A DNA stretch of 64,000 nt from Gammaproteobacteria bacterium. Lineage in GTDB: Bacteria > Pseudomonadota > Gammaproteobacteria > Steroidobacterales > Woeseiaceae. Below, piece by piece: positions 5,764 through 37,138 of this stretch (position 1 is the first letter of the stretch; the number at the start of each line of letters is the position of its first letter). The stretch lies in contig JAADHU010000069.1 in assembly GCA_013151645.1 (NCBI GenBank), positions 62,001 to 126,000 on the forward strand, read 5' to 3'. Under the pieces are notes generated by a model. The model was not told the origin of the DNA, searched no databases, and was given only the letters and a program-made list of their open reading frames with translations. A program made the position numbers and the translations under genes.

Positions 5764-5793
5764 TTTTGCTCCGAATATTATTATTATCCGTGC

Positions 5794-5799
5794 ATTATA
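5794..5799 (-). promoter_or_regulatory. Possible -10 box of the TIR gene
   Basis: On the minus strand a perfect TATAAT lies 31-36 bp upstream of the TIR gene ATG, with an A/T-rich leader of repeated AATA between them. I could not find a good -35 hexamer at 17 bp, so the call rests on the -10 box alone. Confidence 0.4.
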
Positions 5800-5907
5800 G
5801 TATTTTCGGGGCCGGAATCGCCAGAATTCGGTGCAAATCAGGCGATTCTCGAGAGTACCCAGGCCGGTTTTATCGGTAGCGGCCTACTGTTCGCGTGTTG
5901 CAGCGTT

Positions 5908-8040: not shown

Positions 8041-8139
8041 TTTTTTCTCTGGGCAAAGGAGATGACGCATCATAACAATTTCGGGCCGGGCTCGCCGCCC
8101 GGACCGCGATCCGGTCGATACCCGCAAACACCCGTCTCG

Positions 8140-8185
8140 CAGTCCGTTGAAAAACGCATCCATGATATTTTCGAATGGCTGCTAG
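8140..8185 (-). repeat. Palindromic element, copy C (46 bp, degenerate)
   Basis: It matches one end of copies A and B (CAGTCCGTTGAAAAA, then ATCCATGATATTTTC) joined directly to the opposite terminus (GGCTGCTAG). The central half of the 79-80 bp form is missing. As in the other copies, the terminal CTAG supplies the TAG stop codon of the upstream gene, here the M20 peptidase (stop at 8182-8184). Confidence 0.6.
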
Positions 8186-9549: not shown

Positions 9550-9652
9550 GGGGTCTCTCATCGTGATGGTCATGATCCTGGCAGGGAGCGTAACAAATGG
9601 TAGCACCCAGGGGATACTCAACTCGTTTGTGGGACTGTCTCAGGAGTTCCTG

Positions 9653-10897
9653 CTACGCAACCTCGTGATTGGGATTGAGGTTCGCGATGAATGACAGCTG
9701 ATCCGCACCCAGGAAGCGCCTGACAATACGCTCGTATACGCCGTTCCCGCCGTCACCGTTGGTTAGCACCACTAGCGATCTTCCGGTTTCCGGTTCGATG
9801 CCCGCATAGGCACGAAACGAGAAGTTGTTGCCTTCATGTCCGACCAGGCGCCGCCCGTCGGTGCGTTTTTCGAGAGCGCAGCCCAGGCCCCACCAAAGGC
9901 CGGCGCCGGGTATTACCTGTACCAATGGACGGGTCATTCGCGCGCGGAGATCGTCGGCAAGATACGGCCCATCCAGGTCGGAAGATGCCGACAACAGGCG
10001 CAGGAATGTGTAAAGGTCCCTCGCTGTTATCACGAGGCTTGCGGCGGCATTCTGGAAAGTGATTTTTGTGTGCTCGCGACCGGGATCCAGATTCGTCGCG
10101 GCGTTCAGCCAGTCCCGATGGGTCCATTCCGCTAGTGGTTTGTTCCATTCAACCGCCAGAGGTTCGACCATCGACAATACGTTGCGAAGACCCTGGTCAG
10201 CGGCGACTCGTCCTTGTTCATGGCCAAAGGCGACCCGGTCGCCAAGCGTACTGTCCCACACGAACCGGGATTCACTCATGCCGCCTGGCTCGAACAATAT
10301 CGAATGCATGAACGCATTCAATCCCTGGCCCGAAATGCGTTCCACGACGAGTTGCAGCCAAAAATACCCTTCGCCGGAATAACGGAACCGGCCTGGATGC
10401 GAAACGATTGGACCTCCATCCGCCTGGCCGTCCTCGATCCAGTTGGGCAGACCGGAGCGATGACTTAGTACGTCTTCCGCCGTTATATCGTCCAACCGTT
10501 CATCGGCCGGAAAATAGTCGGGCCTTAAATACTCGACCAATGGGCGCTTCAGGTCGATATCTCCCCGGTCAGCGAGTAGCAGGACACCGTAAGCGAATAC
10601 GAGCTTGCTTATGGACGCCGCCTGGAAAAGCGTTTCGCTGGATACGGCGGTCTCTTGCTCGGCATTGCAAACACCCAGGTACCATTCTGTCGTCGGTTCA
10701 TCGCGATCGCCAAAAGCCAGGCTCAGTCCTGGCGTCCCCGACACGGCCATGAGGCTTTCAATCCATTCTTGCGGGGGGATATCGGGATCGTTCCGTGCGT
10801 CTTCCGGTCCGGTTGGCAACGAACATGCCGCAAGCGTTGCAAGCGCCGGTACCGACAGTACGGATCGTCGACTAATACGGGCGCCTGGCTGTTTCAT
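9653..10897 (-). CDS. Serine hydrolase lipoprotein, beta-lactamase (S12) fold
   Basis: 414 residues from ATG at 10897. The N-terminus is a twin-arginine-like or lipoprotein leader (ISRRSVLSV) with lipobox LAAC at Cys25. The nucleophile motif SISK is at residues 95-98. A YSGEGY segment replaces the canonical YxN, and a GHEGNNF motif near the C-terminus corresponds to the third box. The family covers DD-peptidases, esterases and beta-lactamase-like proteins; the YSG variation is common in the esterase-like members, but the substrate is unknown. It is probably the first gene of a run of three same-strand hydrolases. Confidence 0.85.
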   Translation of the reverse strand: MKQPGARISRRSVLSVPALATLAACSLPTGPEDARNDPDIPPQEWIESLMAVSGTPGLSLAFGDRDEPTTEWYLGVCNAEQETAVSSETLFQAASISKLVFAYGVLLLADRGDIDLKRPLVEYLRPDYFPADERLDDITAEDVLSHRSGLPNWIEDGQADGGPIVSHPGRFRYSGEGYFWLQLVVERISGQGLNAFMHSILFEPGGMSESRFVWDSTLGDRVAFGHEQGRVAADQGLRNVLSMVEPLAVEWNKPLAEWTHRDWLNAATNLDPGREHTKITFQNAAASLVITARDLYTFLRLLSASSDLDGPYLADDLRARMTRPLVQVIPGAGLWWGLGCALEKRTDGRRLVGHEGNNFSFRAYAGIEPETGRSLVVLTNGDGGNGVYERIVRRFLGADQLSFIANLNPNHEVA

Positions 10898-11396
10898 TTT
10901 TCCCTCGTGAATCGATGCGGGCGATCCAAGGAACCCTTAAGAACGTGCAACGCGAACAAACAGGGAGATTTCGAGGAGATTTCGAGGACATCCATTGGCC
11001 AGTGTGTGTTGACAGTTTGCAAAATGGTGCGCCCGAAAAACTTCAGCATAACGGCGTTGTGGTACGAATAGCCACCGTCTTCACGCAAGTTGCGACCGTC
11101 TTGTCTGAGTCTTTGATATCAGATCGTCATGGTACAGGCCGAATTACCGAGCGGATCAAGGCAGGGCAGGTGCTTTGATTCTCCGAGCGAGGTTCTTCAG
11201 TACACCGCAGATTCCCCGGGGAGCAAATGGAAACATTCATTCAGCCTCGTACGCTGGTGATGATTGAATTTCCTCGTCTTCGTTCCGGGCCACCAACCTG
11301 AACACTGGCCGCGAGGATGCTGGTCGAGGATTACCGGTTTACTTATCCGGGCCACCGGGCAACAATGCCGGCACTTGTGATTCGCTATATGCACGA
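10898..11396. other. Intergenic region, no gene recognised
   Basis: A 499-bp stretch between a minus-strand hydrolase and a plus-strand small gene. The reading frames in it are short and lack ribosome sites. A small direct repeat of TTTCGAGGA occurs near 10968-10988. Promoters for both flanking genes must lie here, but I cannot point to a convincing pair of hexamers. Confidence 0.4.
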
Positions 11397-11822
11397 TTGA
11401 GTCGCACGAAAATCCCCCCCGCGCCGCATCAGGAGACTGGAACAATCGATACCGAATTTGCACACCTTAGTCAGGAAATACAACGCATTCTGGCGCAACT
11501 GGGTCAGGAAACACTGGTTGCGCCGCGCGTTCTTGCCGATGAGCTCGAATCGTATGCGCTTCGTCTGGGCAAAACGGCTCATACCGAGTTTTTCGATCGT
11601 GACACAGCGGAGCGGGTAACGGTACTTTGCCGACGTTTGCTCAAAGCGTTACCGGCAGATCCCGATGAAAAGCAGCATCACCTCACGCAGCTTGCTGTCA
11701 ATTACTTCGTTCTCGAGGAGGACATCGAAGATGACAATGAATCGCCCATCGGTTTCGACGATGATCTGCAGGTTGCCGTTGCGGTCACCCAGGCATTGGG
11801 ACTTGAGGAACTGCTGAACTAA
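11397..11822 (+). CDS. Small acidic protein, DUF1232/YkvA-like C-terminus
   Basis: About 141 residues if the TTG at 11397 is used. The frame contains no ATG, and an AGGAGA at 11430 suggests that the true start could be a rarer codon shortly after it. The C-terminal part (NYFVLEEDIEDD, then GFDDDLQVAVAV) resembles the DUF1232 pattern of a hydrophobic turn, DxxPD-like acidic run and DD-containing helix. The function of that family is unknown. The protein is soluble, with no signal peptide. A clear terminator follows 15 bp after its stop, which supports it being a real transcription unit. Confidence 0.55.
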   Translation: MSRTKIPPAPHQETGTIDTEFAHLSQEIQRILAQLGQETLVAPRVLADELESYALRLGKTAHTEFFDRDTAERVTVLCRRLLKALPADPDEKQHHLTQLAVNYFVLEEDIEDDNESPIGFDDDLQVAVAVTQALGLEELLN

Positions 11823-11836
11823 GGACCGAGAAGCGG

Positions 11837-11866
11837 GAAAAAGGGGCCGGATTCGACCCCTTTTTC
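11837..11866. terminator. Bidirectional intrinsic terminator
   Basis: GAAAAAGGGG pairs with CCCCTTTTTC around a short loop, giving a G:C stem flanked by an A-run and a T-run. It can stop the plus-strand gene ending at 11822 and, read the other way, the minus-strand AlgP-like gene ending at 11942. Confidence 0.8.
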
Positions 11867-11941
11867 ACTTGGGAATACCCAGCGGGCAGGACGCGCCCGT
11901 CTAACAGACCTGGGAAAAAACCAGGTCGATACCGGATCCCG

Positions 11942-12523
11942 TCAAGCCGCCTTCTTCTTTGTAGCCTTTTTTCTGGCTGCCGTTTTCTTAACCGACTTTT
12001 TCTTACCGGCCGCTTTTTTCTTTGCGGTCGGCTTTTTCTTTGCAGTCGGTTTTTTCGTTACTTTTTTCTTGCTGATTTTTTTCTTTGCGGCTTTTTTTCG
12101 GGCTGCCTTTTTCTTCGGCGCGGACTTTTTCGCCAATTCCTTCTGGATACTCGCCAGTGCCCGGTCAATCCGCAGCGCATGCGTAAGGTGGCTGCGCGCA
12201 TTGCGCAAGTCATCCATTACAGGTGCCAGGTCTTTGCGCAACTGTTTGGCTTCGTTCTTCGCACCATCGAGTACTTTGTCCAGATTTCTAATTTGCTTTT
12301 GGAGTTCTCGCTTTGATTTGGCGGCGGTCGTATTTGCCAGTCGCTCGGTTTTTTTCTGCAACTGAAGCGCGGTGCGTTTGGCACGATTGCTGGTACGATC
12401 AATCTCTTTTTTCAAACGCTTGCGTTGCCGATCCAGTTCCTTCGCGGCTCGCTTCGAGGTGCTTAGGAATTGTTTTTTCGTCTGCTGCAGGGTTTTCTCA
12501 ATATCGCTCAGTTCATTGCTCAC
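11942..12523 (-). CDS. AlgP/histone H1-like basic protein with Lys-Ala tail
   Basis: 193 residues from GTG at 12523. That start has GGAG ten bases upstream; the frame is open 38 codons further, but those encode an unrelated hydrophobic stretch. Residues 1-135 are heptad-rich and charged (coiled coil). From about residue 140 to the end the sequence is almost only Lys, Ala, Thr and Arg in KKAA/KKKPTA-type repeats, as in AlgP of Pseudomonas and eukaryotic histone H1 tails. Such proteins bind DNA non-specifically; AlgP has been linked to alginate gene control. No alginate genes are in the window. The tail DNA is repetitive and prone to length change. Confidence 0.75.
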   Translation of the reverse strand: MSNELSDIEKTLQQTKKQFLSTSKRAAKELDRQRKRLKKEIDRTSNRAKRTALQLQKKTERLANTTAAKSKRELQKQIRNLDKVLDGAKNEAKQLRKDLAPVMDDLRNARSHLTHALRIDRALASIQKELAKKSAPKKKAARKKAAKKKISKKKVTKKPTAKKKPTAKKKAAGKKKSVKKTAARKKATKKKAA

Positions 12524-12896
12524 AATGTCAGGTCTCCGAAAATGAATGGTATACACAACGGACGTTAGCAGAAATTGACCGTTTATGGCGTAAGGAATAG
12601 CCGCATTCGGAAACAATGCCGTGTATGAGCGCAGCACTGAAACTGACGGGACTTCAATCTGTGGGTTCGTCGTGCGGAAACTGATTGTCCATCCGCACGT
12701 AAAGCGCTTTGCGATACGTGATCGTGGGGTGGACGTTCCAGCGGTGTTTGATCGGCGCCTGGCGCAAAACGTTGCAGCCTTCTATGCGGATATCGGGGCT
12801 TCGTATACATCGAAATTTCCGTATTCTCATGACAGGTTCAATCACCGCCAGCACCTGTGGTGAGACCACATCGGACAGGTTCTGCGCGCGCATCGA
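12524..12896. other. Intergenic region with one weak 79-codon frame
   Basis: 373 bp between the AlgP-like gene and the MarR gene, both on the minus strand. A minus-strand frame at 12654-12893 (79 residues, starting three bases after the MarR stop) is the best candidate gene. It has no ribosome site, no recognisable domain and an unremarkable composition, so I do not call it. The promoter of the AlgP-like gene should lie near 12530-12600. Confidence 0.35.
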
Positions 12897-13334
12897 CTAG
12901 CGTGCCAGGTCATCCAGCAGTTCGATCATCTGCTCGATTTGAGTTGCAACTCTTCGTGATCGCTGCAAGATGGTAGTCATCGCATCGTCGACGACCCCGG
13001 ATGCATCGTTAACAAGTTCGCGACCGGCGGGCGTCAACGCGGCGATCGCCAGGCGGGCATCCCGTTTGCTCTTGACGGTGGATACCACGCCCAGTTTTTC
13101 CATTGGGCGAAGCGCGCGGGTGACACCGGACGGGGTCATGCCGACGGCACGCGCGAGGTCGACGCGGCTTGCGCGGGAATTCGGGGTACTGGCCAGCGAC
13201 TGCAACAAGCGGTATTCCGCAAGGCTGATGCCGCGAATCGAGCCAAGACTGGCGTCCAGGCGGCTTTCAAGCCGATTCCAGGCGGCCGCGAAGGTGAGCG
13301 CCAGCGCCTGGTTTTCAGTGGGTTGAATATTCAT
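12897..13334 (-). CDS. MarR family transcriptional regulator
   Basis: 145 residues from ATG at 13334. A longer frame from 13370 would read through a palindrome that looks like the operator, so the shorter start is preferred; neither start has a strong ribosome site. The winged helix is visible: SLAEYRLLQSLAS, the recognition helix region DLARAVGMTPSGVTRALRPM, and the wing KSKRDARLAIAALTPAG with the family's D-R pair. MarR proteins are dimeric repressors that release DNA on binding phenolic or oxidant ligands. The neighbouring exporter gene, read in the same direction and ending at 13407, is a plausible but unproven target. Confidence 0.85.
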   Translation of the reverse strand: MNIQPTENQALALTFAAAWNRLESRLDASLGSIRGISLAEYRLLQSLASTPNSRASRVDLARAVGMTPSGVTRALRPMEKLGVVSTVKSKRDARLAIAALTPAGRELVNDASGVVDDAMTTILQRSRRVATQIEQMIELLDDLAR

Positions 13335-13352
13335 GAGAAAAGCATAACAGAA

Positions 13353-13368
13353 GCGTGAGTAATCACGC
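13353..13368. promoter_or_regulatory. Candidate MarR operator palindrome
   Basis: GCGTGAgtaaTCACGC is a perfect six-base inverted repeat with a four-base spacer, 19 bp upstream of the regulator's ATG. Its size and place fit a MarR-dimer autoregulatory site. Confidence 0.55.
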
Positions 13369-13406
13369 AATAGTTAATCAAAATACCGTTCAAACTACTG
13401 TGCAGG

Positions 13407-14318
13407 TCATGCAGCGTCGGCTAAGGCTCGGCGGTGCAGGCGACTCTCTCGCCAGATTATCAACACATTCGAGGCGATAACGATGCTGGCACCGGTGATG
13501 ACAGCGGGCAAAGGCCATTCGTTCCAGATCATCCAGCCGAACAGAGTGGCCCAGATGATGCTGGTGTAGTTAAAGACCGTAACGACGGCGGCCGGGGCAT
13601 TTTTGTAGGCAACTGACAGCAACCATTGCGCCGCAGCACCGGATAAGCCCACGCCGAGCAGCAACGGCACTTCTCTCAACGACGGAGAGACGGCGACAAA
13701 TGGCATCGCTATCGCGGTAACGGCCGCACCGACCGTGAAAAAATAGAAGCTGATCGTTTCCGGGCTCTCGAAGCGGCCCAGATAACGCAAAATGATCTGC
13801 AAAATCGCATGCAGGAGGGCGGTACACAACGCGACAGCAATGCCAAATACAAAGACGTCGCCCGTCGGTCGCACCATGACGATGACTCCCACGAACCCTG
13901 CGACGACGGCGGACCAACGATACAGGCCGACGGACTCTTTGAGAATCAGGACGGCCAGGACCGGAATAAACAGCGATGACGCGAACAACAAGGCTGCGGT
14001 ATCCGCCAATGGCATCAGCGAGTAGGCGTAGAACGTGAGCACGAGACTGGCGGTGCCAAGAACCGCCCGCAGGCCGACCAGCAAGGGTTTGGTGTTCAGT
14101 TTTAGAATATCGCGCCGACCGAGCGCGAATATCAGAAAGAGAAACGGCACGCTACCGATCAGATTCCGGTAGAAGGCAATTTCAATGACCGAGTGATTTG
14201 CGCTCAGCAGTTTGGCGAGCATGATCATGATCGCAAACAGGAAGTGTGCACCCATGGCGGCGGCCATGCCTCGGATGACGTGATCCTGATGAGCGCGTGC
14301 GTGAAGTTCCTGGGACAT
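13407..14318 (-). CDS. EamA/DMT-superfamily membrane transporter
   Basis: 303 residues from ATG at 14318; the upstream open frame has no membrane character. About ten hydrophobic helices lie in two repeats (EamA repeats), starting at residue 17 (GMAAAMGAHFLFAIMIMLAKLL). A charged loop near residues 50-55 (GRRDILKLNTK) and a short basic C-terminus (RESRLHRR) are typical. The family exports amino acids, purines, S-adenosylmethionine or drugs; substrate is not predictable here. No Shine-Dalgarno sequence is evident. It reads in the same direction as, and is located upstream of, the MarR gene at 13334, and the superoxide dismutase homologue is divergent from it. Confidence 0.85.
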   Translation of the reverse strand: MSQELHARAHQDHVIRGMAAAMGAHFLFAIMIMLAKLLSANHSVIEIAFYRNLIGSVPFLFLIFALGRRDILKLNTKPLLVGLRAVLGTASLVLTFYAYSLMPLADTAALLFASSLFIPVLAVLILKESVGLYRWSAVVAGFVGVIVMVRPTGDVFVFGIAVALCTALLHAILQIILRYLGRFESPETISFYFFTVGAAVTAIAMPFVAVSPSLREVPLLLGVGLSGAAAQWLLSVAYKNAPAAVVTVFNYTSIIWATLFGWMIWNEWPLPAVITGASIVIASNVLIIWRESRLHRRALADAA

Positions 14319-14605
14319 GAGGAGAGGATTGCCGGGGGGTGAGTACTGGGTGCGCGTGCGGGGATATCCATTATAGAGGTCCCCGCGAGATTCCCCACCC
14401 CCTTGCCGGAGATGGCAGGGATATCCTCCGACTGAAAGACCCCGACCGACGGCGGACAGCCAAAGTCGAGTTGACGTTGGCCATCCCGAAACGGCCGAAG
14501 TGCATTCATTTGGATTCGCCGGACCAGCCAATCGTTTGCGGTACCATAGGTGCATGCCGAATTTCACACTTCGCTGTAAACGAAGCAATTTTCAGGAGAA
14601 TCGCC

Positions 14606-15379
14606 ATGAAGATCGCAGACAAGGATGACGACGCAACGGATGCCCGTACGTTTTCTATCGAGCGCCGGAGTGTGATTCGTGGCGCGGTCGCTGGATTGTC
14701 AGCGGGCGCGTTCGCTGTCGCAGCACCCGCTCGGGCGGAGTCCCGAGCATCGTCGGACGGATTAGCGATTGACGCCGGCGCCTTCCACGATGCCCACACA
14801 CTTAAACCATTGCCCTATAAAGCAGCGGCTTTGCACGGCTTGTCGGCCCGATTGATCGAATCCCATTGGTCGCACAATTACGGCGGTTCCGTGCGTGCCC
14901 TCAATGTGACGAATAGACTCCTGGCGGCGGCGCTGGCTGACCGTGATTCGCCGGCATTCACGTACAACGATCTGAAGCGCGAACACTTAATGCGTACCGG
15001 ATCGGTCGTTTTGCACGAATTGTATTTCGAAAACATGGGTGGCGACGGTAAAGCGCCGGCCGATGCTCGCCGGTTAATCGCTGCTTCGTTCGGCGACTTC
15101 GATCGCTGGGAGACCGAATACCGCCGAATCGCCGCCGGTCTTGGCGGGGGGGCGGGCTGGGTCGTCTTTGGCTACAACCGGCATTTCCGGGTATTGGAAA
15201 ACTACTGGATGGCCGATCACATGCATTCGCCGGCAAGCACGGTGCCGCTTCTGGTGATGGATATGTACGAGCACTCCTACCAGATGGACTATGGCGCGGC
15301 AACGGCGCGTTATATAGACGCATTTTTTGCGAACATCAACTGGGACCGCGTTATGGCAAGAATCGAAGCCATACACTGA
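14606..15379 (+). CDS. Tat-exported Fe/Mn superoxide dismutase homologue with altered second shell
   Basis: 257 residues from ATG at 14606, after AGGAGA at good spacing. The N-terminus carries a twin-arginine motif (ERRSVIRG, 19-26) and a hydrophobic stretch ending PARAES, so it is probably exported folded. All four metal ligands of Fe/Mn SOD can be placed: H87, H137, D219 and H223 (DMYEH). Several second-shell residues differ from E. coli SodB: the positions of His30, Tyr34, Gln69 and Trp158 are Asn91, Ser95, Ser133 and Tyr221. Metal binding is therefore likely but dismutase activity is uncertain. The gene stands alone; the neighbours do not suggest a redox operon. Confidence 0.8.
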   Translation: MKIADKDDDATDARTFSIERRSVIRGAVAGLSAGAFAVAAPARAESRASSDGLAIDAGAFHDAHTLKPLPYKAAALHGLSARLIESHWSHNYGGSVRALNVTNRLLAAALADRDSPAFTYNDLKREHLMRTGSVVLHELYFENMGGDGKAPADARRLIAASFGDFDRWETEYRRIAAGLGGGAGWVVFGYNRHFRVLENYWMADHMHSPASTVPLLVMDMYEHSYQMDYGAATARYIDAFFANINWDRVMARIEAIH

Positions 15380-15421
15380 TGCTGGTTATAGCGGCCGCCG
15401 AAACAGGACGACCATCACACG

Positions 15422-16261
15422 CTATTGTGCGGTTTCCTGATTCGTCTTCTTAACCGTACGCGTGCTCAGGTCGAAGATGACGCTCGGGTTGAGATCATAG
15501 AACCACTTTGATCCGTGGGGTTTGTTGTCGTAGACAGCAACCCGACCCTGACCGATGATTCGAAACTCGTTGTTGTGGACGACGATTGCGGCGCCTTCAT
15601 CGATACCGATACCCAGCAGGTTGGGATACAGATCGACCGTTGTCACCAGTTGATTCTCCCGCTTCCTCTCGGTCAGGTGAGGGTTAATCACGACGTCTTG
15701 CAGAAATCCGAATCCACGCGTGTGATTTCGCGCGATCAGGGCAGGTTTGTCGGCATGACCGCGAAGCATGAACGACGTAGCGATCATGGCACCGCCCGAC
15801 TGGCCGCCATATACGCCACCGCGTTGGAGAAGTGCCCTGAGTTCGTTGTGACTTTTCGTATCCAGAACCAGGCGGGCCAGATGGCCCTGGTTGCCGCCAC
15901 TGACCCAGACTGCGCTGGATGCCCTGATGGCGTCTGCAAACGCGTCGGAATCCCAATCACTTCGATGGTTCGAATGTAGCAGCGTGATATCCGTCCGAAA
16001 AAGTTTGCGTAGCGTTGCCTCGTACTCTGATCGGCTGCTGACGTGTTTTGGGAGTTCTCGCGGAATCCGTATGTACAGAATCGAGGAACCACCGTCTCCC
16101 GCCAGTTCGAGGAAAGTATCGAGGACGTTCCCCGCTTCGAGTGTTCCACCGCCGGTCAGTACTAACGTACCCTCGGTGGGCTGCGCAGAGGATGTTTGAG
16201 CGAACGTCGGTGTTGCGGCGGCCAGTAGCAGGAGTGGAATTAATCCCAATACGATATTCAT
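15422..16261 (-). CDS. Exported S51-family (cyanophycinase-like) peptidase
   Basis: 279 residues from ATG at 16261, with a signal peptide ending TFAQ. The class I amidotransferase-like fold of S51 shows as LVLTGGGT, WVSGGNQGHL (116-128) and the nucleophile elbow GGQSGGAM with Ser155. In cyanophycinase and peptidase E the elbow is usually GTSAGA, so Gln-Ser-Gly-Gly is a variant. A GIDEGAAIVV strand follows, also typical. Cyanophycinases release Asp-Arg from cyanophycin outside the cell; PepE cleaves Asp dipeptides. Which of these, or another isoaspartyl substrate, applies cannot be told. The TetR gene lies just upstream on the same strand (stop at 16281, 19 bp away). Confidence 0.8.
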   Translation of the reverse strand: MNIVLGLIPLLLLAAATPTFAQTSSAQPTEGTLVLTGGGTLEAGNVLDTFLELAGDGGSSILYIRIPRELPKHVSSRSEYEATLRKLFRTDITLLHSNHRSDWDSDAFADAIRASSAVWVSGGNQGHLARLVLDTKSHNELRALLQRGGVYGGQSGGAMIATSFMLRGHADKPALIARNHTRGFGFLQDVVINPHLTERKRENQLVTTVDLYPNLLGIGIDEGAAIVVHNNEFRIIGQGRVAVYDNKPHGSKWFYDLNPSVIFDLSTRTVKKTNQETAQ

Positions 16262-16280
16262 TTCGATACGGTTCTGGCGG

Positions 16281-16886
16281 CTAGCGTTGGGACAGGCCGC
16301 TGACCAGTATTTGCAACATGTGCGCCACGTTTATCCGGTACTGTTCCGGGCTCAGGTCCGGGCCCCCGAAGGTTTCGATTCCCTCCACAGCGCTAAGAAT
16401 CAGATCCGCTGCCTGGGTCGGTGTAAGGCCACGTTCGTCAAGCTCGATCTCACCGGCATTTTCAGCGTCTTTGAGCAATTGCACCAGCACGGTGTGAAAA
16501 CGAATCTGGCAAGCGGCCGAGACGTCGCCGCACCGGCGGTTGTTTTCGTCCAGCAAATCGCAGCCATGCTCAGTGGACGCCAGCAAATCGAAGACCACAC
16601 TCGCTTTTGCCTCGAACAATGCGCTTAAGCGTGTTTCCAGCGGGCCAGAGCATTCGATCACGGTTTCGGCGGCTACGATCAGCTTGTCGTGAATGTCTTC
16701 GCACAGCGACCGAAACAACGCTTCTTTATTATCGAAGTACAGATATAGCGCAGCACGGGAAATTCCCGCTTCGCCGGCCACTTCATCCATGGAGGTGCGG
16801 CGATAGCCGTGACGTGCGAAACACCGTACAGCCGCACTGATTATCGACTCGTGCCGATCGACTTTTCGCTTCGCTACGCTCCCCAT
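16281..16886 (-). CDS. TetR/AcrR family transcriptional regulator
   Basis: 201 residues from ATG at 16886; the frame is open upstream but that part covers the operator cluster and has no protein character. The N-terminal HTH is classic: IISAAVRCFARHGYRRTSMDEVAGEAGISRAALYLYF broken as helix 1, helix 2 and the recognition helix with YLYFDNKEALF. The remaining 140 residues form the ligand-binding helical domain. The start codon is two bases from a perfect TGTCAA-AG-TTGACA palindrome, so autorepression is likely. The gene and the S51 peptidase gene below it probably share a transcript. Confidence 0.88.
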   Translation of the reverse strand: MGSVAKRKVDRHESIISAAVRCFARHGYRRTSMDEVAGEAGISRAALYLYFDNKEALFRSLCEDIHDKLIVAAETVIECSGPLETRLSALFEAKASVVFDLLASTEHGCDLLDENNRRCGDVSAACQIRFHTVLVQLLKDAENAGEIELDERGLTPTQAADLILSAVEGIETFGGPDLSPEQYRINVAHMLQILVSGLSQR

Positions 16887-26446: not shown

Positions 26447-29400
26447 CTACTTGCCGATTTTTCGAATCCAGTAACGCATTACGCCTTTGCTGCAACCGTG
26501 TTTTGTCTTGCCCTTACCGAGGCCGAGCGCACTCGCAATCTGTGTGCAGGAACAGCCTGCCGTATCCAGCGTGCTGTACTGGCGATTGCCATGTTTTTTC
26601 TTGCTTTTCCAGCTCCAGAACCGTTGCAGGTGCTTCTTGCGAGAAATGCTGTCGAAGTCAAAGTCGTCGTCAATCAGAGCGAAATGCTTGACCCGCAGTC
26701 CCTTGGCGAGGGTTTCGGGAATCACCGTACCGGGACACATGTCCGCATCGTCATTGACGCCATCGTCATCCTGATCTTTCGTGATGAACAATACCAAACC
26801 ATCGTGGTCGGACGAACGTAGTGGCGTGCCAATGTCATTGATTAGATCGGCGGCGGCATCCGAGTTTCCGCGGCCGTATTCAAAGCCACGAACCGAACTA
26901 TCCAGAGCCTGACTCGTGAGCGCATGATCCAGAACCTGGGCGTTACCGCGGAAGTTGAAGGAGTAGCGTTCTTCCGGCGCGATGGACAATACCTGATTGA
27001 TTAAGTCGGGATTGACTTCGTCAGGGCCCGAGAGCAGGTTTTCTGCGGGATTCGCAGTGCCCGCGATTTGCCCGACAACATCGACGTAGCTGTCGGAAAA
27101 TTCGAAAGCATTGAAATCGCCGATCACAACCAGCCGGATGGCCGGGTCGTCCGTCTGCAGTTCCTGGACCTTGAGGGCGATCGACTGGGCTTGCGCCAGG
27201 CGTTTCGCTCGAACTCGTTCGCCGCTCCTGGATGAATCGATGCCGCCCAATGACCGGTTGTGCACGACCATAACGGCGATAGGATAGTCTGCGCCGTCAC
27301 CGACCATACGACCTTCAAGTAATAGTGGCGGTCGGTCATGCAGCAACGACATATCGAATTCAAGAATTTCTTCTTTGTTGATTTGCGTAATCGCGTCGAC
27401 GGCAACGTTTTCTCTAACGAGAAAACCGACGTCGATCGTGCCGATATCATTGCCCTCGATCAGGTAAGCTGAATAGCTCACCATGCCGTCCGGCATTGCC
27501 GCGATGTCGGCGGCGAGGTCTTCAAGCACACCGAGTTTTTCGACTTCCTGAACGGCAAGAATGTCCGGCGCACCCAGGACGTTGACGATGTAGTCAGCGA
27601 ATTTAGCGCGGCGAACGGCGTATTCATCGGCGCTGACAACAAAATCGTCCCGTGTCCGGCCCGGTATACTCATATCTTCCGGGTCGTCGAAATCGTCGAA
27701 TATGCGCAGCATATTCAAACTACCGATGGTGAATTCAGCACGTTGCCGCTCCCGGACCGCCTGTCCGAGGGGCGCCTCGTTCACCGTTAACACGGTCGGC
27801 CATAGTTCATAGCCGCCAAACTCGAAACCGATTGCACCGATTGCAGAGAATGTCGAGCCGGCGGGGATAAGCAGATTGGGCAGTCCGAGTTTATCCGGGT
27901 CGAGTTCGAACACTTCCGGGTTTCCATCCCATACTGGAAGGTCGACCAGGCCCGGGAATTCGATACCGGGTTCTCGGAACGTGCGCTCAGTCCCGGCTGT
28001 AATGTTGATTTCCGCAATCGGGTCAGAGCGGAAACCCTGGTTCGGACCAGTGACGGTACCGTGAGCAATCTCGACCAACATACCTTCGTAGCATTCCATT
28101 TCTATTGCGCACGACGGTGTCATGGGATTCGGACTTGGCGTGCTGGCGTCGAAAACCACCGCTGGCGGTAGCGCGCCACCGGAACCAAGCAGGGTGACCT
28201 CTGGTGAGCCCGTGAATTCGGTGAAGCCGAAAAACTCTGCGACACTGCCGGTGACGTCGACAAGATCGCCGGCTACGACTGCGGGTGCGCTACCGGTAAA
28301 GACGTAGATACCATCGGACGTATCGACATTGCCGTCTGACCGGTCGGATGGTGTTTGCATGAAAAAGCCGTTCGGCCCGACCGCCGTTACAACGTTGTTC
28401 TGCGTAATGACGGCTTGCCCGGCGTAAGGGGAGGCCGGTCCCGCGCTTTGTATTTCAAATATTTCAAACGGGCCGACAATCGGGAGGACACAATTTTCCG
28501 CACCGGGTGTGGGTGCAAATTGCACATAAGTGCTCGTGTTGCGAGCGCCGCCTGAGCCGTTGTCGCAGCGCTGATTGGAGTCGGCGGAACTATTACCGTT
28601 CCCGCCTTCATTAACCTGTGGCTGGCCAGGATTAAGGAGAACGAGCAGAGCGGCATCGTCGCCGTCATTAGTGTCGTAGACGATCGCATCGATCACATTC
28701 ACCGACGTCACCGGAGTGTCGTTGGGGAAATTCACGGCATCACCCGAGACAAGTGCAACGGCATCGGCGCCGTTTTGGACGAGATTAGTGTTCGGATCGA
28801 TGTCCAGGTCGCAATTTGCGACGTTAGCGGCGTCGCCACAAAGCACGAAATAGCCCGCGCCGTTGGTTGAGAAACCATCCAGGTCAAATGCCTGGTAAGA
28901 CGCATCGTCACTGCCATTGTAAAGTATGATCGACAGACCGCTCAGATCGGTATTGCCCGTTCCACCGTCATAGAGTTCTACAAACTCAGCACTGTCCGTA
29001 CCCGACTGATCGGCGTCTACTTCGTTAATGATGACCGCAGAGTCGACCGGGATGACACAGATATTTTCGACACCTGGCGTCGGTGTGAATTGTGCGTACG
29101 TATCGGTATTGCGGGCTCCACCAGAACCATTGTCGCAGCGCTGGTTTGAGTGCGCCGTACCGTCCCCGCCATCTCGTTCGTTTACCTGGGGCTGTCCCGG
29201 GTTCAGGAGTGTCAGCAGACCCGGGTCATCGCCGTCGTCCGTGTCATACACGATGGCGTCGAGCAGATTGACGTCCGTTACCGGCGTGTCATTCGGGAAG
29301 TCTACTTCGCTGCCAGCGTATAGCGCGACGGCGTCAGCACCGTTTTGAATCAGGTTGGTGTCAGGCAGGACATCCAGATCGCAGTTGGCGACATTGGCTG

Positions 29401-30280
29401 CGTTGCCGCAAAGCACAAAATATCCAGCACTGTTTGTCGCGCTCCCGTCCAGGCCAAACGCCAGATAGGAGGCATCGTCGCTGCCATTCATTAACACCAC
29501 GACCAGTCCGGAAAGATCCGTGTTGCCAGCGCCGCCGTCGTATAGTTCGACGAACTCCGCGCTGTCGGTGCCCGCCTGGTCGACGTCCACTTCGTTAATG
29601 ACAATTTCGCGCGCCGCAGGTTCGCCGCAGGTATTGGCGACACCTGGCGTCGGCGTAGCCTGCTGGTAACCGCTGGTGTTACGTGCGCCACCGGCGCCGT
29701 TCGCACAACGCTGGTTGGAGTGCCCGGTGCCATCGCCGCCGTCGCGCTCGTTGACCTGGGGCTGGCCGGGGTTGAGCAGGACCAGAAGACCGGCGTCGTC
29801 GCCGTCGTCTGTGTCATACACAATTGCATCGATCAGGTTGGCGAGGGTAACCGGGCTACTGGCGGGGAAATCGGCGCCATCGGCGTTGTAGAGTGCGACC
29901 GCGTCGGCGCCGTTTTGGAGAAGATTTGTGTCCGGTGTGACGTCCAGATCACAATTGGCGACGTTCGTTGCATTGCCACAAACAACAAAATATCCCATCG
30001 CGTTGGTGGTCATTCCGTCCAGATCGAAAGCCTGATAGGACGTGTCGCTGCTACCATTGTAAAAAACCAAAACCTGCCCGCTCAGGTCCGTGCTGCCGAC
30101 GCCACCGTCGAACAATTCTACGAACTCGGCTGCATCGGTGCCGACCTGATCGGCATCCATCTCATTGATGACGATCGACTGGGCTCCTGCGATCGGTACA
30201 AATCCGATGAGAGCGAAAGACATGAGCAAAGCGAAATAACATCGGCGCACTGTGACGGGGGAAGCAATGGAATAGTTCAC
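26447..30280 (-). CDS. ExeM-like extracellular nuclease with three lamin-tail domains
   Basis: 1277 residues from GTG at 30280, chosen because GGAG lies six bases upstream. A signal peptide ends IAGAQS. Then come three LTD (lamin-tail) modules, each opening with INE(M/V)D(A/V)DQ, exactly 190 residues apart. An OB-like region follows (about 605-850), then an endonuclease/exonuclease/phosphatase domain (MLRIFDDFDD, AVQEVEKLG, VIGDFNAFEF, SSDHDGLVL). A calcium-type DDDGVNDD segment and a cysteine tail (TAGCSCTQI, HGCSKGVM) close the protein, a pattern common in surface DNases. It would digest extracellular DNA or phosphodiesters. The plus-strand open frames inside it are shadows. Confidence 0.88.
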   Translation of the reverse strand: MNYSIASPVTVRRCYFALLMSFALIGFVPIAGAQSIVINEMDADQVGTDAAEFVELFDGGVGSTDLSGQVLVFYNGSSDTSYQAFDLDGMTTNAMGYFVVCGNATNVANCDLDVTPDTNLLQNGADAVALYNADGADFPASSPVTLANLIDAIVYDTDDGDDAGLLVLLNPGQPQVNERDGGDGTGHSNQRCANGAGGARNTSGYQQATPTPGVANTCGEPAAREIVINEVDVDQAGTDSAEFVELYDGGAGNTDLSGLVVVLMNGSDDASYLAFGLDGSATNSAGYFVLCGNAANVANCDLDVLPDTNLIQNGADAVALYAGSEVDFPNDTPVTDVNLLDAIVYDTDDGDDPGLLTLLNPGQPQVNERDGGDGTAHSNQRCDNGSGGARNTDTYAQFTPTPGVENICVIPVDSAVIINEVDADQSGTDSAEFVELYDGGTGNTDLSGLSIILYNGSDDASYQAFDLDGFSTNGAGYFVLCGDAANVANCDLDIDPNTNLVQNGADAVALVSGDAVNFPNDTPVTSVNVIDAIVYDTNDGDDAALLVLLNPGQPQVNEGGNGNSSADSNQRCDNGSGGARNTSTYVQFAPTPGAENCVLPIVGPFEIFEIQSAGPASPYAGQAVITQNNVVTAVGPNGFFMQTPSDRSDGNVDTSDGIYVFTGSAPAVVAGDLVDVTGSVAEFFGFTEFTGSPEVTLLGSGGALPPAVVFDASTPSPNPMTPSCAIEMECYEGMLVEIAHGTVTGPNQGFRSDPIAEINITAGTERTFREPGIEFPGLVDLPVWDGNPEVFELDPDKLGLPNLLIPAGSTFSAIGAIGFEFGGYELWPTVLTVNEAPLGQAVRERQRAEFTIGSLNMLRIFDDFDDPEDMSIPGRTRDDFVVSADEYAVRRAKFADYIVNVLGAPDILAVQEVEKLGVLEDLAADIAAMPDGMVSYSAYLIEGNDIGTIDVGFLVRENVAVDAITQINKEEILEFDMSLLHDRPPLLLEGRMVGDGADYPIAVMVVHNRSLGGIDSSRSGERVRAKRLAQAQSIALKVQELQTDDPAIRLVVIGDFNAFEFSDSYVDVVGQIAGTANPAENLLSGPDEVNPDLINQVLSIAPEERYSFNFRGNAQVLDHALTSQALDSSVRGFEYGRGNSDAAADLINDIGTPLRSSDHDGLVLFITKDQDDDGVNDDADMCPGTVIPETLAKGLRVKHFALIDDDFDFDSISRKKHLQRFWSWKSKKKHGNRQYSTLDTAGCSCTQIASALGLGKGKTKHGCSKGVMRYWIRKIGK
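28480..30189 (-). repeat. Three tandem 570-bp coding repeats (LTD modules)
   Basis: The same DNA landmark (GCCGTC-T-GTGTC-TA-AC-AT-GC, within the YDT(D/N)DGDD segment) occurs at about 28661, 29231 and 29801, exactly 570 bp apart. Each unit encodes one 190-residue lamin-tail module. The copies are diverged at third positions and a few residues, so the duplication is not very recent. Confidence 0.85.
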
Positions 30281-30590
30281 AAAAGTCTCCAGTTGATTTT
30301 GTTCTTCCTGGTGGATTTCGTGAGTATACGTCAGATCCAAAATGTGACATAACCGGCGTGCCGCGAGTCTGTATTAAGTTAAATTCCGAAATCGCGGGCT
30401 GACTGGAAGCGGGGTTTGTATGTTTGTTTCTGGAGAACCGGCGCCCGGCCAGGCCGCGAGTTCCGAAGAACCCGTGCGCTCAGGGCGTAAGGCTTCAGCG
30501 CGGAGTTGAAGATTTCAATACGTCGACCGGCTGGTCAAATAAATGTTGAACGCTTCGCGTATGCGATCTCGTGAAGATTCTCTCGCGTTG
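30281..30590. other. Intergenic region, no gene recognised
   Basis: 310 bp between the nuclease start and the rhodanese stop on the same strand. It contains no frame with a ribosome site. The nuclease promoter should lie here, but I see no convincing hexamers. A rather G+C-rich segment at 30440-30510 could fold, with no clear terminator. Confidence 0.35.
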
Positions 30591-32965: not shown

Positions 32966-33331
32966 GTGACTAGCGAGACCAGTAGAAATCAGCGTACGCT
33001 CGCCGCGTATGTAACGACTCTTCTTGAGTATCCGCGTTGGATTATAGAACGCGACGTTGACTTCACTCACTGCCGACTCGGTGGCCACTACAACGAATTC
33101 CTGTCTGAATGCGTTGACTGCAAATTCGGCCCGGGGTGTCGCTGGCTCGACCGGCAACGAACCCAGAAAATTGAGCACGCGTCCCTGCAGCAACTCGTGC
33201 GAGCACTCGAGTGTGCGGTCCGGTACTTTCAACCGCCCAATCAACCGTCACGAATCACCGATCCACAGGGGCGCGGCTGGATTCGCGAGGCACGTCGATT
33301 CTTGCACCACGAATCGGCTGAACGGCTTTAG
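32966..33331 (+). CDS. Small cytoplasmic cysteine-rich protein, unknown
   Basis: 121 residues from GTG at 32966, with GAGG six bases upstream. The region HCRLGGHYNEFLSECVDCKF then GPGCRWL holds four cysteines and two histidines and could bind zinc. The rest is charged and helical (LQQLVRALECAVRYF, GWIREARRFLHH). There is no export signal. I do not know a family. It is followed by 234 bp without a gene and then the six-helix membrane protein on the same strand. Confidence 0.5.
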   Translation: MTSETSRNQRTLAAYVTTLLEYPRWIIERDVDFTHCRLGGHYNEFLSECVDCKFGPGCRWLDRQRTQKIEHASLQQLVRALECAVRYFQPPNQPSRITDPQGRGWIREARRFLHHESAERL

Positions 33332-33565: not shown

Positions 33566-34993
33566 ATGAACTTTCTCTTGAGCATTACTCCCTTTCCCGT
33601 GATTTCAGCATTGTTGTGGATCGTGCTGGTGGTCACGGCGTTGTATTTCGCACGCCCAACCGCTCACAAAACGATCCGTGCGATGTCTCTTGCGTTGCAC
33701 CGCACCTTTCGCGTCGCGTCAAAAGCGGTGATACAAGCGGAATACAGCCTGGCTGCGCGCAACAGAGATGTCCTGCTCGCGGCAGGCCGGGAAGCGAAAG
33801 AAAGAATTGTCGAACGGGAGTTCGACCGCGTCAATGAAACGGTGCGCCGCGATCTTGCCAGTTTTTCAGCGCTGCATCGTGCCTTGAATGAATCGATCAA
33901 TGGCATTGAGAAAGATCATCAGGATGCCGTCGATGTGCCACCGGATCCGCCCGGCTGGGTGAAAGCAGTGGAGGCGGTCGCCAATATAGATTCTCGCGAG
34001 GGTCGCGTCGGTATCGGCAATGTCCTGAGCGATATTCACAAATCTCTCATCAAGGCCCACAAGGAAGCGATGACTGCGTACCGCAAGGCAAGCGGAGAGC
34101 GTCATGCGTTGTTGCGACGCATGCGTCCTGACTGGCGGAAGATTCAGCAGACGTTGAGCCAGGTCGGGAAAGATGTCGACAGTTTGTTAAGTCGATCCGC
34201 CGCCATCGATCGCCATATGCAGGAATACGAAGACATGGTGAGCGGCAAGGATCGCGCGATTTCGATATTGTCGTCGTCATCGCTGATGTACTTTTTCGTT
34301 TCCGGCCTGGTGCTGGCGATTGCGATCGGTGGTGCTACCGTCAACTTTTCCCTGATCGCCAGGCCAATGGCGGAAATGGTTGGCGGCACTTCCCTGATTG
34401 GCGGTTTTCGCACCGCCGATATCGCTGCATTGGTGATTATTCTGGTGGAGATTTCCATGGGCCTGTTTCTCATGGAGTCACTTCGCATTACGCGCTTGTT
34501 CCCCGTGATTGGTGCGCTGCCGGACAAAACCCGTGTACGCATGGTCTGGATCACGTTTTTCTTGTTGTTCATGCTTGCAAGCGTCGAGGCAGGTCTTGCG
34601 TATATGCGAGAAGTCCTGTTGCAGGATGAACTTGCGACGAGTGCATTGCTGCGTGGCGATGTCACTCAAGTACTCTCCGGACAATACTTGTGGATTACGA
34701 CGGCCGCGCAAATGGGTATGGGGTTCATATTGCCGTTCGCCTTGACCTTTGTCGCCATTCCTCTGGAAACATTCGTGCATTCTCTTCGTACCGTTGTGGG
34801 CCTGCTCATGATCGGTCTGTTGCGAATGCTGTCGATCGTATTGCGTCTGATTGGAAATGCCTGCCGATATCTCGGTGCCCTGACTGAACAGTTATACGAC
34901 CTCCCGCTGTTCATTCCACTGTGGCTGGAGGAACGAAACGGGAGTGCACGCCCGGGGTCCGGGGATTCCCGCACCAGCGAGGTGACGTCATGA
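33566..34993 (+). CDS. Multi-helix membrane protein with cytoplasmic coiled-coil domain, unknown
   Basis: 475 residues from ATG at 33566, preceded by GGGG. Helices are predicted at about residues 9-28, 238-262, 284-304, 326-346, 378-400 and 408-432, with a charged helical domain of about 200 residues (35-235) between the first and the second. The two loops between later helices are short. The layout recalls a gating or mechanosensing protein, but I do not recognise a family. The next gene, a VWA lipoprotein, starts within this stop codon (ATGA overlap at 34990), so the two are almost certainly partners. Confidence 0.6.
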   Translation: MNFLLSITPFPVISALLWIVLVVTALYFARPTAHKTIRAMSLALHRTFRVASKAVIQAEYSLAARNRDVLLAAGREAKERIVEREFDRVNETVRRDLASFSALHRALNESINGIEKDHQDAVDVPPDPPGWVKAVEAVANIDSREGRVGIGNVLSDIHKSLIKAHKEAMTAYRKASGERHALLRRMRPDWRKIQQTLSQVGKDVDSLLSRSAAIDRHMQEYEDMVSGKDRAISILSSSSLMYFFVSGLVLAIAIGGATVNFSLIARPMAEMVGGTSLIGGFRTADIAALVIILVEISMGLFLMESLRITRLFPVIGALPDKTRVRMVWITFFLLFMLASVEAGLAYMREVLLQDELATSALLRGDVTQVLSGQYLWITTAAQMGMGFILPFALTFVAIPLETFVHSLRTVVGLLMIGLLRMLSIVLRLIGNACRYLGALTEQLYDLPLFIPLWLEERNGSARPGSGDSRTSEVTS

Positions 34994-35637
34994 AAATGAT
35001 TCTAACCAGGATCGTTTTTCTCTCGCTCCTCGCGGCCTGTTCGCGCTCGACGCCGGTCAACAATGGGGTTTATATGTTGCTCGATACATCAGGTACCTAT
35101 CGACAAGAGCTGCAAAAAGCGGAACAGATTATTCGCTATACACTGTCGCACCTCGATGCGACGGACAGTTTCGCGGTGGCGCGAATCGATACCGGCAGTT
35201 TTAGCGAGAAGGATATCGTTGCAAAAGCGTCATTCGATGATCGGCCGAGTACCATCAATCGACAAAAACGGATGTTCGCCGAAAAGATTGGGGCGTTCGT
35301 CGATAGCGTTCAATCGTCACCGTACACCGATATTACCGGCGGCTTGCTGCAAGCGATCGAATATCTCAATGAGAAGGAAACACAGAACAAAACAATTCTG
35401 ATTTTTTCGGATATGAAGGAGGATTTGCAGGACGGCTATTTGCGGGATATCGATTTCGACCTGAACGGATTCGACGTGATCGCTTTGAACGTGACCAAGC
35501 TGCGCAGTGACAACATTGACCCGCGGGAATACCTGTTGCGGCTGACCCAATGGCAATCCCGAGTCGAAAAATCCGGTGGCCACTGGCGGGTTGTCAATGA
35601 CCTGGATGGTCTTGAGGGCATTCTTCAGGGGCAGTGA
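34990..35637 (+). CDS. VWA-domain lipoprotein
   Basis: 215 residues from ATG at 34990, overlapping the upstream stop by four bases. The lipobox is LLAAC (Cys17). A von Willebrand A domain follows: a strand and MIDAS-like motif LLDTSGTYRQ (31-40; Asp-Thr-Ser, then a Thr where many have Ser), a second strand SFAVARIDTG, and a C-terminal block LIFSDMKEDL. Metal-dependent adhesion through the MIDAS is plausible. Translational coupling points to a complex with the six-helix protein. Confidence 0.72.
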   Translation: MKMILTRIVFLSLLAACSRSTPVNNGVYMLLDTSGTYRQELQKAEQIIRYTLSHLDATDSFAVARIDTGSFSEKDIVAKASFDDRPSTINRQKRMFAEKIGAFVDSVQSSPYTDITGGLLQAIEYLNEKETQNKTILIFSDMKEDLQDGYLRDIDFDLNGFDVIALNVTKLRSDNIDPREYLLRLTQWQSRVEKSGGHWRVVNDLDGLEGILQGQ

Positions 35638-35866
35638 GCGCGGTTTTCGACGTTATGTAATACCGGTACCGGCATCTGTAACGGCGCCGGTCGCTGCAAA
35701 GGTGTAGCCATTTTGCGACGTCTGGACGTCGTACGGAAATTGCGGGAAAGTAGAGCGCACAGCTTCCCTGCGTGCGGCGAGAAGGAGTTGAGGATTTAGG
35801 GCAAGGGATGCACTATTGCAATAGTCCATGCATGCGGCGGGGGTAAATTCACATTGAGCGTATGGC

Positions 35867-37138
35867 ATGTATATAAAAGACTCCGAATCAGCGGCGCGGC
35901 CGCGTAGTACACAGCACTCACCGGCCGAGTTTGTTCAGTACCGGTCACAACAGGAAGCATTCAGATTCTTACGCGAGGTGTTGGCGTCGGAACAGGGCGT
36001 TGGCCTTTTGCACGGTCCGGAATTGTCCGGAAAATCAACGCTGGCTCGTCGATTTATTCAGGAACTTCCGAAGAATCTGGCGGTGGCTGCCGTCGATGGC
36101 GCCCGTCTGAGGACGCCGGATTTTCTCGCCGAGGTACTCGCACAATTCGGCTATGAAGTGGCGCTGGAATCTTCGGACGAATTACTCAGCATGCTAAGCG
36201 TTTTCCTGGTACAGCAAGCTCGGGCCCATCAACCTCCGGTTCTGATTCTCGAAAATATTCACAGCATGTATCCGAGCGCACTGTGTGCGCTTTGTAAATT
36301 GGCGGCGTTGACCATTCACCGGCGATACACGTTACGCATTATTCTTATAAGCAATCGTCCGATTCGACAAATACTCGCATCGCCTGGACTCCGAACCATT
36401 GCGGAGCGTTTGCTGGGTGATTTCCAGCTTGGGCCGCTGACGGCAAAAGAAACGCTGGTCTATCTTTATGCCAAAGCTGAGGCGTTTGGTGTAGAACGAC
36501 CGGACAATCTGTTTTCAGTCGATACCTGTGACAAATTGCATCTGGCGTCGGGTGGCTTGCCGGGTGAACTGGATAACATTGCAATGTCGGCGATTGCCCG
36601 TGCTGCTGAGTCGTCGACTCAACTCGAAAAAATTGACAGCCAGGCGATACACCAGGCATTGAGCGCAGGCGATGAAACCGTCGAAACGGTCTTGAAATCG
36701 CTGCAGGATCTACCGAAGCTGTTGATCACCCGCAATGGCAAGACACTGCAGGAGATCGAACTGGATGCGAGTAAGTCGCTGGTCGGCCGGTCGTCGTTGA
36801 GCGATGTGTTTATTGACGATGAATTTATCAGCAAGCACCACGCAATGTTTGTTCGAGCCAACGGTGCCCTGCATATTCTCGATCTGAATAGTCGAAACGG
36901 GACCTACGTTAATTCACAGCGGGTCAAGACGCGCGTGTTGCGGCATGAAGATATCATTTCACTCGGCAATCACCGTATTAAGGTCATCGATAACAACAGT
37001 CGCGGCCGGGTAGAGCGGGTCTCGTTCGATATGGCTGACACAGCGGCCATGAAAAACATCGCTGACATGAGGCGGCAACACGAACGCGAAGGGTTGCAGC
37101 ATACGGCGCTGATGGCTGCAGGACAACGATTGGACTAA
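35867..37138 (+). CDS. GspA/ExeA-like AAA ATPase fused to an FHA domain
   Basis: 423 residues from ATG at 35867. Residues 24-250 form an AAA-type ATPase with Walker A GPELSGKST (50-58) and Walker B VLILENIH (125-132), as in ExeA/GspA and transposition-helper ATPases. An FHA domain covers about 285-375 with the phosphothreonine-binding triad in GRSS, SKHH and NSRNGT. There is no signal peptide or membrane helix. Fusion of ExeA-like ATPase and FHA suggests phospho-dependent assembly. It follows the VWA gene by 229 bp on the same strand and may be part of that module. Confidence 0.75.
   Translation: MYIKDSESAARPRSTQHSPAEFVQYRSQQEAFRFLREVLASEQGVGLLHGPELSGKSTLARRFIQELPKNLAVAAVDGARLRTPDFLAEVLAQFGYEVALESSDELLSMLSVFLVQQARAHQPPVLILENIHSMYPSALCALCKLAALTIHRRYTLRIILISNRPIRQILASPGLRTIAERLLGDFQLGPLTAKETLVYLYAKAEAFGVERPDNLFSVDTCDKLHLASGGLPGELDNIAMSAIARAAESSTQLEKIDSQAIHQALSAGDETVETVLKSLQDLPKLLITRNGKTLQEIELDASKSLVGRSSLSDVFIDDEFISKHHAMFVRANGALHILDLNSRNGTYVNSQRVKTRVLRHEDIISLGNHRIKVIDNNSRGRVERVSFDMADTAAMKNIADMRRQHEREGLQHTALMAAGQRLD

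Follow-up and report, generated by a model that had tools for sequence, protein, structure and literature searches.

A conserved pair of membrane protein and VWA-like lipoprotein, with an AAA-FHA protein bearing a candidate phosphothreonine tail as facultative neighbour in some Woeseiaceae

Three consecutive genes on a Woeseiaceae contig raise the question of whether they constitute a single envelope module and what might engage the phosphothreonine-binding FHA domain that the last of them encodes. They lie in a 64,000-nucleotide stretch of contig JAADHU010000069.1 (assembly GCA_013151645.1), which we call the window and to which coordinates refer, on the forward strand unless noted otherwise. 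The first gene (33566-34993) encodes a membrane protein of 475 amino acids with an N-terminal membrane helix, a long helical region and further membrane helices, the second (34990-35637) a VWA-like lipoprotein of 215 amino acids with the lipobox LAAC, and the third (35867-37138) a 423-residue protein, AAA-FHA, that is a member of a multi-copy Woeseiaceae family. A first-pass annotation of this DNA had read the three as one envelope module. The three genes are real, and their coordinates bear out the four-nucleotide overlap that it described, in which the VWA start codon lies within the stop of the membrane gene (ATGA); it had not remarked on the gap of 229 nucleotides that separates the VWA gene from the ATPase gene. 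The module itself stands only in part, as a conserved pair of membrane protein and VWA-like lipoprotein to which the ATPase is an optional neighbour. The observed locus is thus two separable units, the pair and AAA-FHA, and not one module.

Judged by sequence comparison, the membrane-VWA pair is the conserved unit. Among 80 public loci retrieved via the membrane protein, the best 80 of 193 encoding a relative of it, the VWA gene was detected in 78, and in the two misses (L077 and L107) the contig stops at or just past the membrane gene. The four-nucleotide overlap is kept in 54 of the 68 relatives in which both open reading frames were parsed, with a one-nucleotide overlap in seven more. By record title the carriers are Woeseiaceae, Steroidobacter, Peristeroidobacter, a Thiotrichales and two Alphaproteobacteria assemblies. 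A phylum sample of 398 genomes contains the membrane gene in 21, counting the window's own genome (3.96 Mb), where it is single-copy. Fourteen stretches from 13 of these 21 genomes were read; a profile search found the VWA gene in 12 of the 14, and the pair is retained in four homologs (L240, L241, L249, and L251) at 24-28% membrane-protein identity. The two other stretches hold diverged membrane homologs with no VWA gene found (L242, locus positions 3700-5202, and L243, 9279-10649), the one in L243 being without part of the region at about model positions 338-386. A plasmid origin of the pair is unsupported, with no match in 72,556 plasmid records, as is a phage origin, since 53 pattern matches in viral contigs included no sequence encoding a relative (the search covered viral contigs and not phage records).

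No third neighbour recurs broadly around the pair, as judged by a crude gene call in which 1240 genes of the 80 loci were clustered. Apart from the pair itself, the clusters present in most loci are an open reading frame antisense to the VWA gene (17 of 80 loci) and AAA-FHA (10 of 80, after one of 11 loci with a tblastn match, L035, was excluded at 26% identity with neither Walker A nor tail). In the window, the immediate neighbours scanned are TPR, rhodanese and cyclophilin proteins; neither these nor, by eye, the remainder includes a recognisable secretion gene, in agreement with the first-pass annotation. In five loci (L096, L097, L098, L100, and L105) the pair directly follows a fliA-like gene, and four of these loci have there what looks by eye like a flagellar cluster.

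How AAA-FHA relates to the pair was read from 32 membrane-gene genomes, the window's own included, with flanks ranging from almost nothing to about 20 kb. AAA-FHA is within 1 kb and on the same strand in six of them (the window's genome, G001, G010, G020, G047, and G055), and so in five relatives; the first-pass annotation had named an ATPase gene never adjacent in relatives as what would refute its reading, and this is not what the relatives show. G026 and G029 have AAA-FHA upstream within 3 kb, and G016 has it 12-19 kb off on the opposite strand. At least nine of the 32 genomes thus carry it within 20 kb, eight of these nine on the same strand; depending on the genome it precedes or follows the pair, in at least three arrangements. 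By a rough Poisson estimate, chance would put a copy within 1 kb on the same strand in 0.07-0.12 genomes out of the 29 family genomes considered; the observed count is inflated by related genomes and still comprises at least three arrangements. The adjacency of AAA-FHA and the pair is above this rough chance estimate, and AAA-FHA is a facultative neighbour of the pair in some Woeseiaceae.

Facultative adjacency can also be read as inherited history, with the pair acting alone and AAA-FHA an unrelated neighbour whose family has spread by duplication in the Woeseiaceae. We give this reading, too, somewhat less than an even chance. It accommodates the absence of a copy from the examined flank, often a short one, in 23 of the 32 membrane-gene genomes, the multi-copy nature of the family, some of whose members lie on other contigs or in genomes that lack the pair, the 229-nucleotide gap in the window, and the fact that contact between AAA-FHA and the membrane protein is only putative; the first two of these are also what the three-gene module fails to explain. 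It accounts less well for the three or more arrangements and the shared strand in eight of nine linked genomes, far over the chance estimate, and for the confinement of linked copies to two clades of the AAA-FHA tree: 6 of 11 rows in clade A, which includes the window's copy, 9 of 28 in clade B and none of the other 32, where several contigs are too short to tell.

The AAA-FHA protein itself offers a clearer view of what its FHA domain might bind. Both domains score above their Pfam cut-offs, FHA with 64.4 bits (cut-off 20.7) and AAA_22 with 45.0 bits (cut-off 27), and the structural model, in which the AAA domain precedes the FHA domain, is good for both. We aligned a chosen set of 71 copies and built a midpoint-rooted tree from it, omitting L035, L150 (an outgroup type) and two open reading frames of 225 and 168 amino acids; at least 15 or so likely clade-C copies lie outside this tree. 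The Walker A motif GPELSGKS (residues 50-57; 36014-36037) is intact, with G50, G55, and K56 in all 71 rows. The Walker B motif, LILEN (residues 126-130; 36242-36256), is degenerate, a point that the first-pass annotation had not made: the canonical D-E pair is absent from all 71 rows, and position 130, the catalytic glutamate of canonical enzymes, is N in 62, H in four, D in four and S in one, and never E. The AAA domain, whose fold neighbours include TnsC, MuB and ORC/Cdc6, probably binds ATP and hydrolyses it poorly. The FHA domain (residues 284-374; 36716-36988; Pfam match 1.3e-17) has the intact motifs that had been claimed for it (G307, R308, S322, H325, and N344), and across the set R308, S322, H325, and N344 are conserved wherever a row has no gap at these positions.

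The earlier description of the AAA domain as ExeA-like holds as a resemblance of type only, through a sub-cut-off match to TIGR03015. The accessible part of PMC4098917 describes ExeA as binding peptidoglycan and acting with ExeB for the secretin. The window protein differs from ExeA/GspA in its C-terminal half, which is filled by the FHA domain, in its degenerate Walker B motif, and in having no recognised secretion gene beside it. An identity with ExeA was rejected, there being neither a Walker B D-E pair nor a peptidoglycan-binding part (no such Pfam match at E up to 1), and so was an identity with the XrtA/PEP-CTERM ATPase of TIGR03015, at 87.5 bits against a curated cut-off of 324.5.

The most conserved feature beyond the FHA domain is a single threonine, T392 (codon 37040-37042), in the tail motif DTAAM. 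Lying just under twenty residues past the domain, it is T, and never S, in all 68 rows that have the residue; of the three rows with a gap there, L282 and L295 end early and L296 has a broken FHA end. It is the sole invariant column of residues 374-423 (mean pairwise identity 39%), preceded by D or E in 67 of the 68 rows and followed by Met at +3 in 60, and the conserved tail, [D/E]TxxMKx[L/I]xDxR, runs to residue 402. In the structural model, residues 379-395, T392 among them, have a predicted local distance difference test score (pLDDT) below 50, and a low-confidence helix spans 398-420. Twenty-two more distant AAA-FHA proteins, one from the same genome and the rest from the same family and order, were compared: 18 keep DEAQ, four (L327, L330, L335, and L336) have another degenerate Walker B motif, and none has an aligned [D/E]TxxM. 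A canonical AAA-FHA protein in the window's genome, L150, keeps DEAQ and has no tail motif. In an order sample of 196 genomes, the high-scoring copies among the matches listed all come from the window's family. Some tails of AAA-FHA relatives from other families (L322-L339) contain unaligned T-x-x-hydrophobic words, a motif too loose to interpret.

Because an intact FHA domain is combined with an invariant threonine in a probably disordered tail and with an AAA domain lacking the Walker B glutamate, we predict a self-binding phosphothreonine switch. AAA-FHA is best explained as a putative switch of the GarA, OdhI and DgcB kind with an ATP-binding AAA domain as its output. These three proteins are among the solved structures nearest in fold to the FHA part, and in them, according to the accessible portion of PMC6733907, the FHA domain binds a threonine of the protein's own tail, with a hydrophobic residue at +3 being important. 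Like the window protein, GarA and OdhI combine an FHA domain with a flexible tail that carries a threonine; theirs is an N-terminal tail in proteins without an AAA domain and with an experimentally shown switch, whereas the tail here is C-terminal and its role predicted from sequence. Likewise, DgcB of Bdellovibrio, an FHA-GGDEF protein, reads its own phosphorylated tail with a hydrophobic residue at +3 (PMC6733907, same portion), but its tail is N-terminal and its output is a diguanylate cyclase rather than an AAA domain.

The same conservation might instead mark a docking or oligomerisation helix with T392 as its cap, the FHA domain then reading a phosphothreonine on another protein. We consider this less likely than not, though with an appreciable chance of being right; in its favour, conservation does extend to residue 402 and the low-confidence helix is modelled from 398. 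A helix cap usually tolerates Ser, Asp or Asn, and FHA domains prefer phosphothreonine over phosphoserine; both weigh against a docking helix, as do a threonine in 68 of 68 rows and the pLDDT below 50 at 379-395. A self-binding switch would need a kinase, and the first-pass annotation was right that none is near: the genome has 17 Ser/Thr kinase (Pkinase) matches, none on the window's contig. This absence is no puzzle, because the 17 lie elsewhere in the genome. What the earlier annotation had left as an FHA domain without a known trigger is narrowed by these matches and by the invariant tail threonine as candidate ligand. Two other loci of the genome group kinases with FHA proteins. L154 (G000:C35:31000-49000) has at positions 5572-9535 (+) a CHASE2 Ser/Thr kinase, a PP2C phosphatase and an FHA protein consecutively, and L152 (G000:C82:204000-223000), which is not linked to the window, has at 7965-16428 (-) a set of kinase, FHA, VWA and channel proteins: a Ser/Thr kinase, a MotA/TolQ/ExbB channel, a PEGA/FGE-sulfatase protein, an FHA protein and one further protein whose VWA match is sub-cut-off.

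What the conserved pair itself may do is suggested by the residues that it keeps. We call the lipoprotein VWA-like since its VWA_2 score is below the gathering cut-off; VWA_2 matches at E up to 0.01 were obtained in 21 of 34 relatives scanned (best 2.9e-5). In an alignment of 80 rows (L246, L250, and L253 omitted), D32, S34, T113, and D141 and the lipobox cysteine C17 are invariant (80 of 80), and T36 is present in 76. From the known DxSxS-T-D pattern we take D32, S34, T113, and D141, which lie in the stretch 35083-35412, to be the metal ion-dependent adhesion site. These metal-site residues and the lipobox cysteine are kept even in pairs of distant Pseudomonadota at about 25% identity. The residue at +2 of the lipobox LAAC is Ser in the window, and Asp occurs there in just two of 80 rows. 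In Escherichia coli, a residue other than Asp after the lipid cysteine directs sorting to the outer membrane, and by this rule the rarity of Asp points to the outer membrane as the probable anchoring site of the lipoprotein.

Six helices had been ascribed to the membrane protein. Five clear membrane helices are borne out, namely an N-terminal helix at about 10-28 and, after a long helical region at about 30-236, four more, while the sixth segment (about 411-432) is by hydropathy and model either a membrane or an amphipathic helix. The protein has no match above cut-off in Pfam, NCBIfam, PADLOC or PHROGs, and 38 relatives scanned singly against Pfam gave no consistent match at E up to 0.01. Across 87 aligned relatives (omitting L091, which is short, L243, with an internal deletion, L246, split into two frames, L250, and L253) 28 positions are invariant. 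Eight of these (N260, F261, L263, I264, R266, P267, E270, and G273) fall in the first loop, residues 259-283 (34340-34414), which follows the second membrane helix; of the remainder, some lie around E341-L351 and some in the fifth helix. The mean net charge is +0.7 for loop 259-283, +3.9 for 307-325, -2.9 for 347-373 and +5.1 for the long region 29-236. From these charges and the positive-inside rule we infer that loops 259-283 and 347-373 are periplasmic, and the region at about 30-236 is predicted to be cytoplasmic. Acidic residues within the membrane segments are highly conserved, E341 in 87 of 87 relatives, E295 in 86 and E304 in 84. A known fold for the protein was rejected: 339 aligned chains were mainly long-helix matches (best Z 10.0, root-mean-square deviation 32.3), which we read as common coiled-coil geometry.

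Based on these features, we put forward a hypothetical mechanism in which the membrane protein and the VWA-like lipoprotein form a trans-envelope complex to which, in some Woeseiaceae, an AAA-FHA phospho-switch is attached. As a whole this reading is tentative, and we place it somewhat short of an even chance. The membrane protein would sit in the inner membrane and extend its long helical rod into the cytoplasm, and its conserved periplasmic loops would contact the VWA lipoprotein at the metal-site face, so that the outer-membrane-anchored lipoprotein and its inner-membrane partner bridge the envelope. The acidic residues in the membrane helices may serve ion coupling or gating. AAA-FHA would be a facultative cytoplasmic switch that binds ATP and hydrolyses it poorly. 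A Ser/Thr kinase encoded elsewhere would phosphorylate T392, and phospho-T392 would then dock in an FHA domain, either that of its own subunit or that of an adjacent one; in copies adjacent to the pair, this docking would alter the grip of AAA-FHA on the cytoplasmic rod. The full combination, in which the pair is an ion-coupled, envelope-bridging machine with a metal-dependent contact, governed in some Woeseiaceae from the cytoplasmic side by an ATP-binding, non-hydrolysing AAA protein locked via its own phosphorylated tail, is speculative, and we think it distinctly unlikely to be right in every part.

Several observations weigh against the trans-envelope complex with its attached switch. For the pair, the membrane-protein model is moderate to weak (pLDDT 68, predicted template-modelling score 0.46), a Foldseek search for solved structures like it returned 236 matches at E up to 10, of which none reached 0.001, the VWA_2 score of the window protein is 23.3 bits against a Pfam cut-off of 27, and the VWA gene went undetected by profile search in two of the 14 distant stretches (L242 and L243). 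For the attachment, the VWA and ATPase genes are 229 nucleotides apart in the window, yet no terminator-like site was flagged between them; many AAA-FHA copies lie away from the pair, some in genomes that have no pair. Clade A is also only weakly associated with the membrane gene (8 of 10 against 21 of 51 genomes, p = 0.037, relatedness uncorrected and membership judged from fetched copies only), and a strict link between the two was rejected as weak. For the switch, an acid pair is found at Walker B in four of 71 copies (E-D once and D-D three times), and because this acid is retained the loss of hydrolysis is uncertain for those four; TxxM is a short motif whose surrounding conserved tail may be the docking helix discussed above, with a low-confidence helix modelled from 398; and two of the 22 distant proteins, L329 and L335, align a tail threonine without Met at +3.

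Known systems that combine FHA and VWA proteins resemble the locus in part. The ArnA and ArnB proteins of Sulfolobus, FHA and vWA proteins respectively, act together according to the accessible text of PMC6509490, but the window's VWA protein has a lipobox and is predicted to be exported. As the lipobox places it, by prediction, outside the cytoplasm, direct FHA-VWA contact is unlikely here. Alternatively, the three genes could represent a reduced form of the Glt/Agl kind of machine that serves adhesion or motility in Myxococcus, with a VWA adhesin, the membrane protein as motor and an FHA regulator. The parts are alike in that Myxococcus has an FHA protein (GltG), an outer-membrane lipoprotein (CglB) and inner-membrane components (AglRQS), as given in the accessible part of PMC3169522, and CglB is termed a VWA adhesin in the title of a reference cited in PMC11444678, that title being our sole source for the point. 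The conserved acidic residues in membrane helices and the position of the pair after a fliA-like gene in five loci would also fit such a machine, although this flagellar context possibly reflects a single lineage. GltG, in contrast to the AAA protein of the window, is a membrane protein with a TonB-like part, and the VWA protein is little more than a VWA-sized domain. The membrane protein has no match to MotA/TolQ/ExbB (PF01618) at E up to 1, nor have its 38 scanned relatives at E up to 0.01, and no AglRQS-type channel was found among the scanned neighbours in the window, those in the 80 loci having been clustered and read by eye; a MotA/ExbB gene is present on another contig of the genome. 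We regard a reduced Glt/Agl machine as improbable and retain the trans-envelope complex with its facultative switch as a working model.

Two other features of the window are recorded here. Upstream of the membrane gene, 32966-33331 (+) could encode a cysteine-containing protein of 121 amino acids, undetected in the other 109 loci searched, those of the same genus included, some of which have no upstream stretch. Farther away, 26447-30340 (-) encodes a 1297-residue protein that by eye has three tandem repeats of about 190 residues each (INEVDADQ-like), followed by a C-terminal half that, also by eye, resembles an endonuclease/exonuclease.

Our literature searches, for which most subscription papers were outside reach, found no publication on the pair or on the AAA-FHA family, and none that joins the Woeseiaceae, or ExeA, with an FHA domain. 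The pair is a conserved envelope unit, assigned to no family, in several lineages of the Pseudomonadota, and removing it from a Steroidobacter that can be cultured could uncover a general function. For the AAA-FHA family the prediction is specific, namely that a single invariant threonine is the ligand of the FHA domain. To our knowledge, the targets of Ser/Thr kinases in this bacterial group are largely unknown. Testing T392 would bear on what bacterial Ser/Thr kinases target and on how an AAA protein without its catalytic glutamate may have become a phospho-switch.

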